In this document: piece by piece, positions 4,528-18,433 of the stretch
Layout of the letters: each line of letters begins with the position of its first letter
How positions within the stretch are numbered: the stretch's first letter is position 1
NCBI RefSeq assembly: GCF_040438885.1
Contig: NZ_CP159218.1
Coordinates: forward strand, 1,054,001 to 1,118,000
Origin: Nakamurella sp. A5-74
GTDB lineage: Bacteria; Actinomycetota; Actinomycetes; Mycobacteriales; Nakamurellaceae
Length of the DNA stretch: 64,000 bases
Reading direction: 5' to 3'
Notes under the pieces: generated by a model
Seen by the model: the letters and a program-made list of their open reading frames with translations, nothing else
The model's database searches: none
What the model was told of the DNA's origin: nothing
Made by a program: the position numbers and the translations under genes

Positions 4528-5343
4528 ATGGGAATGCTCTGCGCGGTCGCCTTCTCGCCGAAGGGCCAGTTGCACTACGCGGACCCCGGTGAGCTCCAGC
4601 TCGAGGTCGGCGACCACGTTTTGGTGCCCACCGAGCAGGGGTCGGTCGCGGCGCAGGTGATGTGGGCGGCCGAGTACGTCTCGGACGACACCGAGGGTTT
4701 CCCGCGGCTGGTCGGGATGGCCACCGACGATGACCTGGTGGAGACGGAGCGGATCCGCCGGATCAAGGCCCGCACCATCGTCGCGACCCGCAAACTCGTG
4801 CGGGAGCACGACCTCGACATGAAGGTGTTGGCCGCCGATCCGCGACCCGCGGACAACAAGATCGTCATCTTCTACACCTCGCCGGACACGGTCGACTTCC
4901 GCTCCCTGCTGCGTGATCTGTCGGCCACCCTCGGCAGCCGGGTCGAGTTGCGTCAGCTCCCCGCCCGTGATGCGGTGCGGGTGACCGGCGCCATCGGCTC
5001 CTGCGGCCGGGACACCTGCTGCTCGACGTTCCTCAAGGATTACGAACCGGTGACCCTGGCCATGGTCCGTGACCAGGATCTGCCGACCAATCCGCTGCGC
5101 ATCTCCGGTGCCTGCGGCAGGCTGATGTGCTGCCTGAAGTACGAGCACCCGCTGTACCAGGAGTTCAAGCGCGATGCGCCGCCGGTCGGGTCGAAGGTGA
5201 CCACCCCGGACGGCGACGGGGTCGTGACGGCGCACTCGGTGCCGCGGGACGGTCTGGTCGTCAAGCTGTATGCCGACGGCTCGTCGCAGGTCTGCAGCAA
5301 GGCTTCGGTGTGCGCCTCCCGCAAGGCGTTCGACAGCCGCTGA
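4528..5343 (+). CDS. PSP1-domain (RicT/YaaT-like) protein
   Basis: A 271-residue PSP1 C-terminal-domain protein. Its cysteine motifs CGRDTCC and CGRLMCCLKYE match the conserved signature of this family. In Bacillus the homologue RicT (YaaT) works in a complex that binds iron-sulfur clusters and affects RNA processing, sporulation and competence; the role in actinomycetes is not established. Cytoplasmic. Location directly after holB is the conserved context of the family. The ATG at 4528 is used. Confidence 0.88.
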   Translation: MGMLCAVAFSPKGQLHYADPGELQLEVGDHVLVPTEQGSVAAQVMWAAEYVSDDTEGFPRLVGMATDDDLVETERIRRIKARTIVATRKLVREHDLDMKVLAADPRPADNKIVIFYTSPDTVDFRSLLRDLSATLGSRVELRQLPARDAVRVTGAIGSCGRDTCCSTFLKDYEPVTLAMVRDQDLPTNPLRISGACGRLMCCLKYEHPLYQEFKRDAPPVGSKVTTPDGDGVVTAHSVPRDGLVVKLYADGSSQVCSKASVCASRKAFDSR

Positions 5344-14062: not shown

Positions 14063-14135
14063 GCCCCCATCGTCTAGCGGCCCAGGACCCCGCCCTTTCA
14101 CGGCGGTAGCACGGGTTCGAATCCCGTTGGGGGTA
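14063..14135 (+). tRNA. tRNA-Glu (TTC)
   Basis: Acceptor stem GCCCCCA/TGGGGGT, anticodon TTC in loop CTTTCAC, T-arm ACGGG/CCCGT. Discriminator A, no encoded CCA. First of a Glu-Asp-Phe cluster common in actinobacteria. Confidence 0.97.
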
Positions 14136-14180
14136 CTGGTCGGTCGGCCCGGTTTCATCCGGTACGGTTGGTCAGCGCAA

Positions 14181-14254
14181 GGCCCTGTGGCGCAGTTGGT
14201 TAGCGCGCCGCCCTGTCACGGCGGAGGTCGCGGGTTCAAGTCCCGTCAGGGTCG
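14181..14254 (+). tRNA. tRNA-Asp (GTC)
   Basis: Acceptor stem GGCCCTG/CAGGGTC with one G:T pair, anticodon GTC in loop CTGTCAC, T-arm CGGGTTCAAGTCCCG. Discriminator G, as expected for tRNA-Asp. No encoded CCA. Confidence 0.97.
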
Positions 14255-14302
14255 CAGGTACCGGGGCCGGTTCGATTCTCACGAGCCGGTCCCGGCTGCT
14301 CT

Positions 14303-14379
14303 GGCCAGGTAGCTCAGTCGGTACGAGCGTTCGCCTGAAAAGTGAAAGGTCGCCGGTTCGATCCCGGCCCTGGCCACCA
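14303..14379 (+). tRNA. tRNA-Phe (GAA) with encoded CCA
   Basis: Acceptor stem GGCCAGG/CCTGGCC, anticodon GAA in loop CTGAAAA, T-arm GCCGGTTCGATCCCGGC. Discriminator A at 14376 followed by a genomically encoded CCA (14377-14379), unlike the other four tRNAs in the window. Confidence 0.97.
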
Positions 14380-14385
14380 GCTGTT

Positions 14386-14428
14386 GTCAAGAGCCACTCG
14401 CCGGAATTGAAGGTGGGTGGCTCTTGAC
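14386..14428 (+). terminator. Hairpin terminator after the tRNA cluster
   Basis: A perfect 12-bp inverted repeat, GTCAAGAGCCAC at 14386-14397 and GTGGCTCTTGAC at 14417-14428, with a 19-base loop. It lies seven bases past the tRNA-Phe CCA. Confidence 0.7.
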
Positions 14429-14714
14429 GTTGTCGGCGTGGTTCTTACCAGTGAACCTTCGGTCGAAGGCACGACCACACCGCCGCAGGCTCCCCATTTC
14501 GAAGTTCCCTCCTCCGGGTGCGCCGGATCGGGGAATCCGCGCGAGGACGGTAGAGCCGGGACTGGGGGCAACCCATGTGCCGCCCTGTCACGCCCCTGGC
14601 AGCAGAACACCACGGATCGAAGATCTCGTCCCGCTTGGCGGCTCACGGGTAGTGACCAAAAGAGTGACGCAGCCGTCCCGATTGCCTGCCCAGCGCTGGT
14701 CAATACGGGATCGC
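14429..14714. other. Intergenic stretch without a recognisable gene
   Basis: About 290 bases between the tRNA terminator and the motif preceding the first beta-helix gene. Open frames here have no protein-like composition. GC-rich self-complementary patches suggest a structured leader for the downstream secreted protein, but I could not fit a known riboswitch. Confidence 0.4.
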
Positions 14715-14746
14715 GTCTGGTTACCTACCGGTCACTAGTAGTAATC
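14715..14746 (+). promoter_or_regulatory. Shared motif upstream of the first beta-helix gene
   Basis: GTCTGGTTACCT, 14 bases, then GTAATC. The same pair with the same 14-base gap occurs before the paralogous gene (16509-16540). It could be a promoter or a regulator site. Here it ends 17 bases before the ATG at 14764. Confidence 0.5.
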
Positions 14747-14763
14747 CCGCGGTGGAGGCAATG

Positions 14764-16155
14764 ATGAATCAGGCAGTCGTTCGCGCTGGCAGGTCTCGTA
14801 CGCGGTGGTCGGCAACGATGGTCGCCGGGGTGTTGGGTGCGGCATCACTGCTGGCCGCCGTCCCGGCGGCGGGTGCGGCTGCGGCGGTGTCGGCCGGCTG
14901 CACGGTGCTGACCTCCAACATCTACCAGGCGAACACGCCGACCGGTTCCAGTCTCATCACTGCCAGCTCGAGTGAGTACCTCTCCTCCGCGCAGAAGGGT
15001 TTCACCTCCGCGCGGGGAGTCACCATGAAGGCATCCACCCAGCAGAAGTCGGGAACGGTCCCGATCATCCGGATGTACAACGGACGCACGCAGAGCTTCC
15101 GGTGGGCCGCCTACGGCAGCTCGAACGCACGAGCAGCCACCCTGGCAGGATTCCGCTTCCAGCGTCGCGAGTTCTACGCGCTGCCGGCCGGTGGCACGGG
15201 GTGTATCCGGGTCTATCGCTACTCCAGGGGCAAGGTCTCCCAGCTGGTGCAGCAAGGCTCCCGGGAAGCGCCGCTGCAGGCTGCCGGCTGGGTGCGCAGG
15301 GAGGCACTGTTCTCGGTAGCGCGACCGGGCACTGCGACGGCGCCGACGCCGGTGCCGGTCGTGACTCTGACCGTGGTCAGGGGTGACCTGGTCGTGAGCA
15401 CACCCGGTCAGGTGGTCAGCCGGATGGATGTCCGTGGGTCCATCGTCGTCAGGGCTGCGAACGTGACCATCAAGAACTCGGTCGTCCGTGGTGGGACGAA
15501 CGCGGCGGCCCGGTTGTACCGGCCGTTGGTGGACGCAAGGGCCGGGGCGGCGAACCTGCTGATCGAGGACACCGTGATCGCCGAAGCCACCCCGTCGGAG
15601 TGGAATGCGTCCGGTATCGGCGGCTCGAACTTCACCGCACGCCGGGTGAACATCTCCGGCCAGGTCGACTCGATCAACATCACCGGCTCCAACGTGAATA
15701 TCGAGAGCTCGGTGCTGGGCAAGAACGTCTACTACGCCAACCACTGGCAGTCCCAGCAGTCCGGTGGTACCCACAACGACAGCGTCCAGGTGTTGCGGGG
15801 CGACAACATCACCATCCGCAGCAACGTGATGACCGGATCCAACAGTCTCGGTGTGATGGCTGCCCCCGAGTGGGGGAGTGTCAGGAATCTGTTGGTGGAG
15901 AACAACTTCATCGACAACGGTGAGTGCTCCAGCAAGTTCACCAGCAAGGGCGGCAACGCCAACTCGATGACCGTCCGCAACAACGTCTTCGGGGGCCACC
16001 AGCGGTCCTGGAAGTGCTACATCGTCACCGCCGGTGGGGTGAACGCTGCGGTCAGCGGCAATGTGCTCTCCAATGGTTCGACGCCTGCTGCGCCCAGCGG
16101 CATCGCCGGCTCCCGCAGCAGTACTCCGGTCGGGGTGACGCTCGGCCAGCTGTGA
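14764..16155 (+). CDS. Secreted right-handed beta-helix protein, paralogue 1
   Basis: About 463 residues. A Sec signal peptide (hydrophobic core about residues 19-38, cleavage in an Ala-rich stretch before 46) precedes two short repeats of the type IRMYNGRTQSFRW...FYA and IRVYRYSRG...ALFSVA, resembling DUF5648-like modules. The second half is a parallel beta-helix rich in NVTIKNSVV, NLLIEDT and NNVFGG-type rungs, with a conserved THNDSVQVLRG turn as in secreted polysaccharide-active beta-helix proteins. No catalytic residues can be assigned. The ATG at 14764 has GGTGGAGG just upstream. The neighbouring gene is a close paralogue. Confidence 0.82.
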   Translation: MNQAVVRAGRSRTRWSATMVAGVLGAASLLAAVPAAGAAAAVSAGCTVLTSNIYQANTPTGSSLITASSSEYLSSAQKGFTSARGVTMKASTQQKSGTVPIIRMYNGRTQSFRWAAYGSSNARAATLAGFRFQRREFYALPAGGTGCIRVYRYSRGKVSQLVQQGSREAPLQAAGWVRREALFSVARPGTATAPTPVPVVTLTVVRGDLVVSTPGQVVSRMDVRGSIVVRAANVTIKNSVVRGGTNAAARLYRPLVDARAGAANLLIEDTVIAEATPSEWNASGIGGSNFTARRVNISGQVDSINITGSNVNIESSVLGKNVYYANHWQSQQSGGTHNDSVQVLRGDNITIRSNVMTGSNSLGVMAAPEWGSVRNLLVENNFIDNGECSSKFTSKGGNANSMTVRNNVFGGHQRSWKCYIVTAGGVNAAVSGNVLSNGSTPAAPSGIAGSRSSTPVGVTLGQL

Positions 16156-16210
16156 CGGGTCACAGGACCGGCTGAGCTGCCCGAGCGCGTCCCGCACAGC
16201 CCGACCGCGA

Positions 16211-16242
16211 CCCGGTGTCTGCAGAACTCTGCAGACGCCGGG
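16211..16242 (+). terminator. Hairpin terminator after beta-helix paralogue 1
   Basis: A 13-bp stem (one G:T pair), CCCGGTGTCTGCA paired with TGCAGACGCCGGG, 6-base loop, then TTGTT. It ends the transcript 55 bases past the stop, so the two paralogues are separately transcribed. The rest of the 16156-16642 gap holds no gene I can support. Confidence 0.75.
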
Positions 16243-16508
16243 TTGTTCGGTGCCCTGGTGCTGTGCAAGTCGCGAGCAGGGGTCGGGTGGTGCCGAGGTT
16301 TCAGTCCTCCGTGTCGCTCGCAGGCCTGGTCGGGCGGTATCGGCAGGAGCGGACACGCCGGGGAGGTAGTCGATGCTCCTTGTCATGCCTTCGGGCGAAT
16401 GAGTGGTCGTAGCGAAGACGACACTCCGGTACTCCCCGCACCAGGAGTGACAAACGAATTGGCGGACGAATGACGTGCACCATTTGCGACTTGTTGAGTC
16501 CGCGCTAC

Positions 16509-16540
16509 GTCTGATTACCTGGCAAACACCTTCGGTAATC
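16509..16540 (+). promoter_or_regulatory. Shared motif upstream of the second beta-helix gene
   Basis: GTCTGATTACCT, 14 bases, then GTAATC. Here the pair also forms a perfect 7-bp inverted repeat, GATTACC (16513-16519) and GGTAATC (16534-16540). The spacing is identical to that before paralogue 1. It ends 102 bases before the GTG at 16643. Confidence 0.5.
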
Positions 16541-16642
16541 GATGGAGCTCTGCAGGTCCGGTTCACCGAGGTGCCCGGGCTCTGGATGTCTCTGGTTCCG
16601 ACGTTCTCTGCGCTCCCCGTCAATCGTTCCTCGGAGGTACTT

Positions 16643-18433
16643 GTGGTCTCGACCGCCTCTCGGCGCTCCCGCGGCGTCCGTCTGCTGACAGCTGTGGCCG
16701 TCGGCGCTCTGGGAGCCTCGGCGCTGCTGATCGGTAGCGGCGCCCTCGCGATCGCGGCACCGGCTCCGGGCTGTCTGTACCTGAGCACGAACGTCTACCA
16801 GAGCTCGAAGCCGACCGGCACCAGTCTGTTGACCACCAGCGCTGCCGAAAACGCCAGGTCGGCTGCGAAATACGGCTATACGGCACAGGACGGCGCGGTG
16901 GCCCGGGTGGCAGCCATCCAGCAGCGCGGGACCACAGCGATCTACCGGCTGTACAACCCGAGGACGTACGACTTCCGCTGGGCCCCGGCCGGGACCGTCT
17001 TGAATGCGGCCGTCGCGGCCGGGTACGTCAAGCAGCGGCTTGACTTCTATGCATCCGTCGTCGGCGGACCGTCGTGCGTCCCGGTCTACCGGTTCACGAA
17101 GGGGGCGCTCAGCAGGATCGCGGCGACGGCCGCCAAGCGAGCCGCGTTGGAGGCGGCCGGTTGGCGGCGACAGGCAGTCGTCTTCTACGCGGCGGCGATC
17201 GCGAAACCGGTTGCGGCCACGACGCCCGCGCCGGCGCCGACGACGGCACCGACGAAGTCCGCGCCGACGACGCCGGTTCCGACGAAGTCCGCGCCGACGA
17301 CGCCGGTTCCGACGACGCCGGTTCCGCCGTCGAATCCCGCGCTACCGAGTACGCCGACGGTGCCGAGCACGCAGACGGTGCCGACCACGCAGACGGTGCC
17401 GAGCACGCAGACGGTGCCGAGCACGCCGACGGTGCCGAGCACGCAGACGGTGCCGAGCACGCAGACGGTGCCGACCACGCAGACGGTGCCGGCCACAGAG
17501 GGTGCGCCCACGACCCCGGTTCCGATCACGACGGAGCTCCAGCCCACCACTTCGGTCCCGTCCCCGCCGGTCCTCCCGTCGTCCCCGCCGGTCGATTCCC
17601 CGCCGGTGGATTCCCCACCACCGGCTCCTCCTGCCACCCCCGAGCCGACGGTGATCGAGGGAGACCTGATCGCAGACAAGGCCGGTCAGGTGATCGACGC
17701 CGTCGAGGTGCACGGTTCGATCATCGTGCGGGCGCCGAACGTCACCATCCGGAACTCGGTCGTCACCGGCGGTACCAATGCGGCAGCCCGCCGTTACTGG
17801 CCGCTGGTCGACGCCAGGGCCGGCTATGCCAACCTGGTGATCGAGGACACGATCATCGCCGAGTCCACAGCGTCGGAGTGGAACGCGTCCGGCATCGGTG
17901 GGTCGAACTTCACCGCACGTGGGGTGAAGATCTCCGGGCAGGTCGACTCCATCAACATCACCGGTTCCAATGTCACGATCGAGAACTCGGTGCTGGGCAA
18001 GAACGTCTACTACCCGGATCACTGGCAGTCGCAGAAGTCCGGCGGCACCCACAACGACAGCGTGCAGGTGTTGCGGGGCGACGACATCACCATCCGCGGA
18101 AACGTCATGACCGACTCCAACAGCCTCGGAGTGATGGCCGCGCCCGAATGGGGATCGGTGCTGAACCTGTTGGTGGAGAACAATTTCATCGACAACGGGG
18201 AGTGTTCCAGCAAGTTCACCGACAAGGGTGGCAACGCCAACTCGATGATCATCCGCAACAACGTCTTCGGCGGACACCAGCGATCGTGGAAGTGCTACCT
18301 GGTGACAGCCGGCGCGGTCAACGCGACCATCAGCGGCAATGTGCTCTCCAACGGCAGCACCCCGGGAAGCCCTGCCGAGATCGGTACCGCCAGGAGCAGC
18401 ACCCCGATCAGCGTGACACCCGGCCAGATCTGA
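16643..18433 (+). CDS. Secreted right-handed beta-helix protein, paralogue 2, with Pro/Thr linker
   Basis: About 596 residues. It has the same plan as its neighbour: Sec signal peptide, two DUF5648-like repeats (IYRLYNPRTYDFRW...; VYRFTKGALSR...VVFYAA), then a parallel beta-helix. The last 260 or so residues are nearly identical to paralogue 1, including THNDSVQVLRG. The difference is a Pro/Thr/Val linker of about 130 residues inserted between the two parts and encoded by 30-bp and 18-bp tandem repeats. The GTG at 16643 is chosen because GGAGG lies six bases upstream; earlier in-frame starts lack a site. Probably extracellular; ligand or activity unknown. Confidence 0.82.
   Translation: MVSTASRRSRGVRLLTAVAVGALGASALLIGSGALAIAAPAPGCLYLSTNVYQSSKPTGTSLLTTSAAENARSAAKYGYTAQDGAVARVAAIQQRGTTAIYRLYNPRTYDFRWAPAGTVLNAAVAAGYVKQRLDFYASVVGGPSCVPVYRFTKGALSRIAATAAKRAALEAAGWRRQAVVFYAAAIAKPVAATTPAPAPTTAPTKSAPTTPVPTKSAPTTPVPTTPVPPSNPALPSTPTVPSTQTVPTTQTVPSTQTVPSTPTVPSTQTVPSTQTVPTTQTVPATEGAPTTPVPITTELQPTTSVPSPPVLPSSPPVDSPPVDSPPPAPPATPEPTVIEGDLIADKAGQVIDAVEVHGSIIVRAPNVTIRNSVVTGGTNAAARRYWPLVDARAGYANLVIEDTIIAESTASEWNASGIGGSNFTARGVKISGQVDSINITGSNVTIENSVLGKNVYYPDHWQSQKSGGTHNDSVQVLRGDDITIRGNVMTDSNSLGVMAAPEWGSVLNLLVENNFIDNGECSSKFTDKGGNANSMIIRNNVFGGHQRSWKCYLVTAGAVNATISGNVLSNGSTPGSPAEIGTARSSTPISVTPGQI
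17251..17494 (+). repeat. 30-bp and 18-bp tandem repeats coding the linker
   Basis: Bases 17251-17280 and 17281-17310 are identical. From 17351 to 17494 come eight copies of an 18-bp unit (acgcagacggtgccgagc and close variants) coding the hexapeptide TQTVPS or TPTVPS. Both unit lengths keep the frame. Confidence 0.9.

Follow-up and report, generated by a model that had tools for sequence, protein, structure and literature searches.

Results

Two tandem genes lie on the forward strand of the window, by which we mean the whole stretch of 64,000 nucleotides of Nakamurella sp. A5-74 DNA that was analysed. Gene 1 (14764-16155, 463 amino acids) encodes a secreted protein with a DUF5648 domain and a probable right-handed beta-helix. 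Gene 2 (16643-18433, 596 amino acids) is its paralogue and carries a long Pro/Thr repeat linker. The starts, ATG at 14764 and GTG at 16643, were inferred from a signal peptide in each case and from the ribosome-binding sites GGAGG at 14754-14758 and 16633-16637, both on the forward strand. Over 457 aligned codons the two products share 64% amino-acid identity, and in both of them a region alignable with beta-helix homologues comes after the DUF5648 domain. The AlphaFold model of the gene 1 product is weak (mean pLDDT 54) and its Foldseek matches all have E > 0.001, the top ones being mostly parallel beta-helix proteins; modelling gives mild support to a beta-helix fold. The linker of gene 2 is built from 15- and 18-base tandem repeats rich in Pro and Thr codons (17193-17525), which gene 1 does not have. 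Directly upstream of the pair are three tRNA genes (Glu, Asp and Phe, 14063-14379), and the neighbourhoods of tRNA genes are a frequent place of inserted DNA.

A third beta-helix paralogue was picked elsewhere in the genome by protein similarity, independently of any motif (stretch L047, genome positions 4521042-4524800; the gene begins at position 493 of this stretch, the start being inferred). Only its beta-helix part was matched, and its Thr/Pro linker is very long. The box GGTATC-N5-GATACC-N5-GTTACG, at approximately 413-440 of L047, precedes the start of the gene by about 50 nt.

Each gene of the pair is preceded on the forward strand by a copy of one element, CGTCTGRTTACCT-N14-GTAATC, which was read directly at 14714-14746 (site 1, CGTCTGGTTACCTACCGGTCACTAGTAGTAATC) and at 16508-16540 (site 2, CGTCTGATTACCTGGCAAACACCTTCGGTAATC). 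The preliminary description had reported two copies with equal spacing, and both are present at these places, the shared block being one base (C) longer than first noted. The conserved element has the form CGTCTGGTTACCT-N14-GTAATC at site 1 and CGTCTGATTACCT-N14-GTAATC at site 2, and a central CAC is also common to the two. Site 1 ends 7 nt before the ribosome-binding site of gene 1 and 17 nt before its start codon.

Written as a direct repeat, site 1 is GTTACC-N5-GTCACT-N4-GTAATC and site 2 is ATTACC-N5-AACACC-N4-GTAATC. The units of site 1 lie at 14720-14725 (GTTACC), 14731-14736 (GTCACT, 5 nt past the first) and 14741-14746 (GTAATC, 4 nt past the second), and GTAATC recurs as second unit in the rpfA-like boxes of two genomes of the source genus. 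The units of site 2 lie at 16514-16519 (ATTACC), 16525-16530 (AACACC) and 16535-16540 (GTAATC); the middle one is a weak match, scoring -6.6 with the unit matrix described below, and its reverse-strand reading GTGTTT scores 1.4. Both sites are better understood as runs of three GTNACY-like units, arranged head to tail and each roughly a helical turn (10-11 bp) from the next. The perfect 7-bp inverted repeat that had been described for the second copy is indeed there (GATTACC-N13-GGTAATC, pairing at 7/7 positions with centres 20 bp apart); site 1 pairs at 5/7. Since GTNAC almost equals its reverse complement, units that face the same way mimic an inverted repeat, and the dyad is probably a by-product of this quasi-palindromic unit. 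For the same reason the orientation of the units is ambiguous, GTNAC reading alike on both strands.

Searching the window for TTACCT-N14-GTAATC with up to two mismatches gave three matches, namely the two sites and the reverse reading of site 2 (mean of shuffles, 0.21), in agreement with the earlier remark that the motif had not been noticed elsewhere in the window. A genome-wide search for the pattern had also been proposed; in the 4,748,569-base genome the exact pattern occurs at site 1 and site 2 only. Allowing one mismatch adds only the reverse reading of site 2, and allowing two yields 33 matches, of which only the best were inspected, against 16 for a reversed control pattern. Among 397 genomes of the order, RTTACCT-N14-GTAATC has one further match, in genome G069, against three for the reversed control. 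Within the G069 family (24 genomes), CGTCTGRTTACYT-N14-GTAAT with up to two mismatches was found in G069 and in one other genome, G134, where it sits in apparent coding sequence (control 1). A broad contig collection, from which the source genome is possibly absent, held four matches of CGTCTGRTTACYT-N14-GTAATS, none actinobacterial by title, and these were taken as chance. The left half alone, GTCTGRTTACCT with at most one mismatch, is no more frequent in 17 genomes of the genus than its control (116 against 124 matches), and none of the 12 of these 116 places that were chosen by eye and inspected had GTAATC at the right distance.

The plain identity of the two 33-mers, 22/33, is not unusual: among pairs of real 300-bp windows 279 of 999 reached it, as did 18 of 1000 Markov shuffles. 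A two-block score that gives more weight to A and T, the rarer bases of this genome, and whose block lengths were picked after the motif had been seen, was reached by none of 300 real pairs and none of 300 shuffles. The flanks in the same register are unalignable (17/60 and 10/30 identical positions), and the coding sequences have diverged to a dS of 0.68 over 270 C-terminal codons and of 1.23 over 187 N-terminal codons. As 22 of the 33 motif positions were nevertheless retained, the motif has likely been kept by selection as a regulator site, and the comparison thus supports the selection that the preliminary description had proposed.

The match in G069 reads ATTACC-N5-GTCACT-N4-GTAATC, with GTCACT at the same place as in site 1, and lies between a gene for a GH99-CBM96 secreted protein and a divergent DUF1810 gene; CGTCTG stands beside this unit as well, on the other strand. 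Our interest in the site arose after the motif had been seen, and the match alone is no evidence, since it is one against three control matches; it is its content that counts. G075 and G170 belong to the same genus as G069, and GTYACT-N4-GTAAYC is conserved in their orthologous upstream regions, so that the middle and right units are kept and the left arm is lost. All three GH99 orthologues belong to a single genus, in another family, and are therefore not independent of each other.

A related pattern, GTTAYC-N5-GTNAYC, has 12 strict matches upstream of rpf genes in the source genus (in 9 of 32 loci), and the reversed pattern has none. With a first matrix, a score of at least 17 (a strong N5 box) was reached at 10 of 29 rpf loci, from 10 of 17 genomes, a count that is largely circular because most of those boxes had built that matrix. 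A unit matrix was then trained on ten such boxes, all of them in other genomes of the genus, and with it we scanned 464 kb of the source genome (the window and 20 further stretches). The best two-unit match, at 19.8, is the perfect box GTTACC-CGTTC-GTTACC of the genome's own rpfA-like gene (L107, 1089-1105), 286 bp upstream of the start; it stands ahead of a c-di-AMP riboswitch leader (L107, 1222-1367) and is therefore probably at the promoter. Site 1 is the best three-unit match in the 464 kb, at 21.9, and only the twelfth on two units. Site 2 has a three-unit score of 15.7, and five other places score at least as high. One good two-unit match in the window, GTCACC-N5-GTAATC at 5038-5054 on the minus strand, lies inside a likely coding frame (4528-5343) and is probably due to chance.

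As a background, 103 upstream regions were taken from the 20 stretches with a crude ORF caller. On three units, none of them scored as high as sites 1 and 2, the third paralogue at 16.9, the own rpfA-like gene at 14.1 or the GH99 orthologues at 17.0, 17.3 and 20.1. On two units, the score was equalled or beaten by 0/103 regions for site 1, G075 and G170, by 1/103 for G069, by 3/103 for the third paralogue and by 8/103 for site 2, whose two-unit score is thus ordinary. Other groups of genes were compared with random, mostly coding windows, a background that makes the following p-values too generous: no convincing three-unit box was found at mtrA, at three other rpf loci or at the two NlpC/P60 promoters examined out of six (p 0.03 to 1.0; two-unit p 0.01 at one of the rpf loci), only 3 of 15 beta-helix/DUF5648 homologues elsewhere, a count that leaves out the short fragment L042, reached a three-unit p < 0.05, and none of 12 more distant GH99 homologues had a strong box (best p about 0.02).

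The genome encodes MtrA, MtrB and an LpqB-like protein together. MtrA scores 382.8 bits with NF040689 (cut-off 300) and MtrB 604.3 with NF040691 (cut-off 450); the LpqB-like protein scores 303.7 with NF010141, below the cut-off of 602, and has a Gmad1 domain above the Pfam cut-off.

A search for sigma-70 promoters and terminators between 14380 and 16700 found none (shuffles gave 0.4 and 1.2), and an Rfam scan of 14300-16800 returned a tRNA and three matches far under their gathering scores, with nothing at the motif. An RNA hairpin was rejected as the main reading, site 1 folding no better than its shuffles (149 of 200 were at least as good). Site 2 folds mildly better than its own (6 of 200 at least as good).

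Discussion

Direct repeats of this kind are typical of OmpR-family response regulators, those of actinobacteria included. Both motifs are predicted to be operator sites of such a regulator, with MtrA, from the MtrAB-LpqB system, as the likeliest candidate, a reading that we hold at slightly better than even odds (about 0.55). The preliminary description had proposed a site for a dimeric regulator, which stands in the broad sense, whereas the inverted repeat on which it was based gives way to direct repeats of the OmpR/MtrA type. Direct repeats are favoured because the middle unit is common to the G069 site, because the scores come from independent rpfA-like boxes and because it is the middle and right units, and not the dyad, that the GH99 orthologues conserve.

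For Streptomyces, the part of PMC13189361 available to us gives GtnAcC-n5-GTnAcn as the MtrA site. The first unit of site 1 matches its half-site GtnAcC and the first pair, GTTACC-TACCG-GTCACT, fits this form as a whole; ATTACC-TGGCA-AACACC of site 2 is only a partial fit. Like the MtrA boxes of Streptomyces, Mycobacterium and Corynebacterium, the sites described here have GTnACC-type half-sites in direct repeat with a 5-nt spacer, potential targets at the cell envelope and the cognate regulatory genes in the same genome. Overlapping pairs have a precedent as well: at bldD of S. coelicolor, two MtrA pairs share one half-site and one spacer is a base shorter (available part of PMC5650626). Unlike these boxes, ours have three units spaced N5/N4 and a fixed CGTCTG flank, which has no counterpart in the published MtrA sites compared, as far as the accessible parts of those papers go, and which is left unexplained, both at sites 1 and 2 and next to the G069 unit, where it stands on the opposite strand. 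The targets of MtrA in M. tuberculosis include rpfA, rpfB and rpfC (PMC6265350, partial text). Among accepted targets in the genomes compared here, the GTNACY-like unit is found at the rpfA-like gene, and the evidence at the NlpC/P60, other rpf and mtrA promoters tested is not convincing. That MtrA itself is the binder is only probable, since site 2 is weaker and neither the two NlpC/P60 promoters tested nor the mtrA promoter has a clear box. The motif in Dietzia was reported as a TCG-rich 21-mer and not as GTNAC (PMC9599347, in part), and the available portions of PMC5487470, PMC8334368 and PMC11000389 gave no consensus. A brief literature search found no DUF5648 beta-helix protein as MtrA target.

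If MtrA binds as predicted, one protomer would occupy each GTNACY-like unit, with the units succeeding one another every 10-11 bp along the same face of the helix, and unit-N5-unit-N4-unit would form two overlapping pairs with the middle unit in common; the middle unit of site 2, despite its weak match, would presumably be used by the regulator too. Binding would couple the expression of the beta-helix/DUF5648 proteins to envelope signals read by MtrB, and this control may extend to the rpfA-like gene and to the third paralogue. At site 1, 17 nt separate the box from the start codon, which makes classical activation less likely than repression or a transcription start within the box. Altogether the motif pair is a plausible and fairly ordinary regulatory site. 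Should the prediction be correct, secreted beta-helix proteins that are so far unstudied would be tied to the conserved envelope sensing by MtrAB, the genus would gain a testable box model, and the locus would be a case of an apparent inverted repeat that arises from a quasi-palindromic direct-repeat unit. Only tentatively, and with the odds clearly against it, we also consider a lineage-specific regulon in which the three-unit N5/N4 OmpR-type box with its fixed CGTCTG flank would control secreted surface proteins of the DUF5648/beta-helix and GH99-CBM96 kinds. Such a regulon might be a new branch of that of MtrA, or it might obey a separate response regulator that has a flank recognition of its own; its proteins would probably bind or cleave polysaccharides.

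The same type of box might be used by another OmpR-family regulator with GTnAC units, such as GlnR, an AfsQ1-like protein or an uncharacterised response regulator, which seems to us unlikely. GlnR boxes are described as gTnAc-n6-GaAAc, or as GTnAC-n6-GTnAC in S. venezuelae, and MtrA in some instances competes with GlnR (both from the available part of the review PMC10704036). Units 1 and 2 of site 1, GTTAC-N6-GTCAC, fit the second form as given there, the 11-bp spacing of gTnAC units and the predicted OmpR-type binder are shared, and the strong rpfA-like boxes lack the CGTCTG flank and the N4 second spacer; with regard to the first form, the a-site is present and the GaAAC b-site is absent. 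On the other hand, the genes here are not nitrogen genes, the targets are secreted proteins, and the unit also marks rpfA-like genes, which according to the partial source cited above are targets of MtrA in M. tuberculosis. An operator formed by the inverted repeat GATTACC-N13-GGTAATC, for a dedicated dimeric regulator of both paralogues, is likewise improbable. The perfect 7-bp dyad of site 2 with its 20-bp distance between centres, the CGTCTG common to both sites and the restriction to two exact genome copies, as a dedicated regulator would have, speak for it; yet site 1 pairs at 5/7 only, the GH99 orthologues of G075 and G170 keep the middle and right units and not the left arm, and the central CAC, the rpfA-like boxes and the box of the third paralogue are left unexplained. 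Moreover, no dedicated regulator gene was seen beside the pair, the nearest regulator-like frames being MarR-like by eye.

That the motif is an unselected remnant of the tandem duplication, kept by chance or by gene conversion, would suit tandem paralogues with 64% amino-acid identity and the ordinary identity of the plain 33-mers. We consider it very unlikely in view of the coding dS (0.68 and 1.23), the unalignable flanks, the information-weighted match that none of 600 controls reached, and the comparable boxes that precede the third paralogue and rpfA-like genes and also occur in another family. Least credible is the -35/-10 promoter of an alternative sigma factor, which the preliminary description had offered as one explanation: the spacing is near that of promoter hexamers, and a transcript starting about 7 nt downstream of site 1 would have a short leader that includes the ribosome-binding site, but there are just two exact copies in 4.75 Mb, and a single mismatch adds nothing beyond the second site read in reverse. 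One match against three controls in the 397 genomes, the four non-actinobacterial titles in the contig collection and the end of site 1 only 17 nt before the start codon also tell against it.

The PhoP box consists of direct repeats at 11 bp with the unit GTTCACC. The repeat distance is alike, but the units here have six bases (GTTACC), without the extra C of GTTCACC, and PhoP was set aside on the form of its box. In genome G016, two copies of GACTGRTTACCT lie 24 bp apart (L066, 1462-1497) beside a frame that is FKBP-like by eye, and this pair is probably unrelated to the motif. Finally, the own rpfA-like gene combines its box with the c-di-AMP riboswitch, so two signals may meet there.
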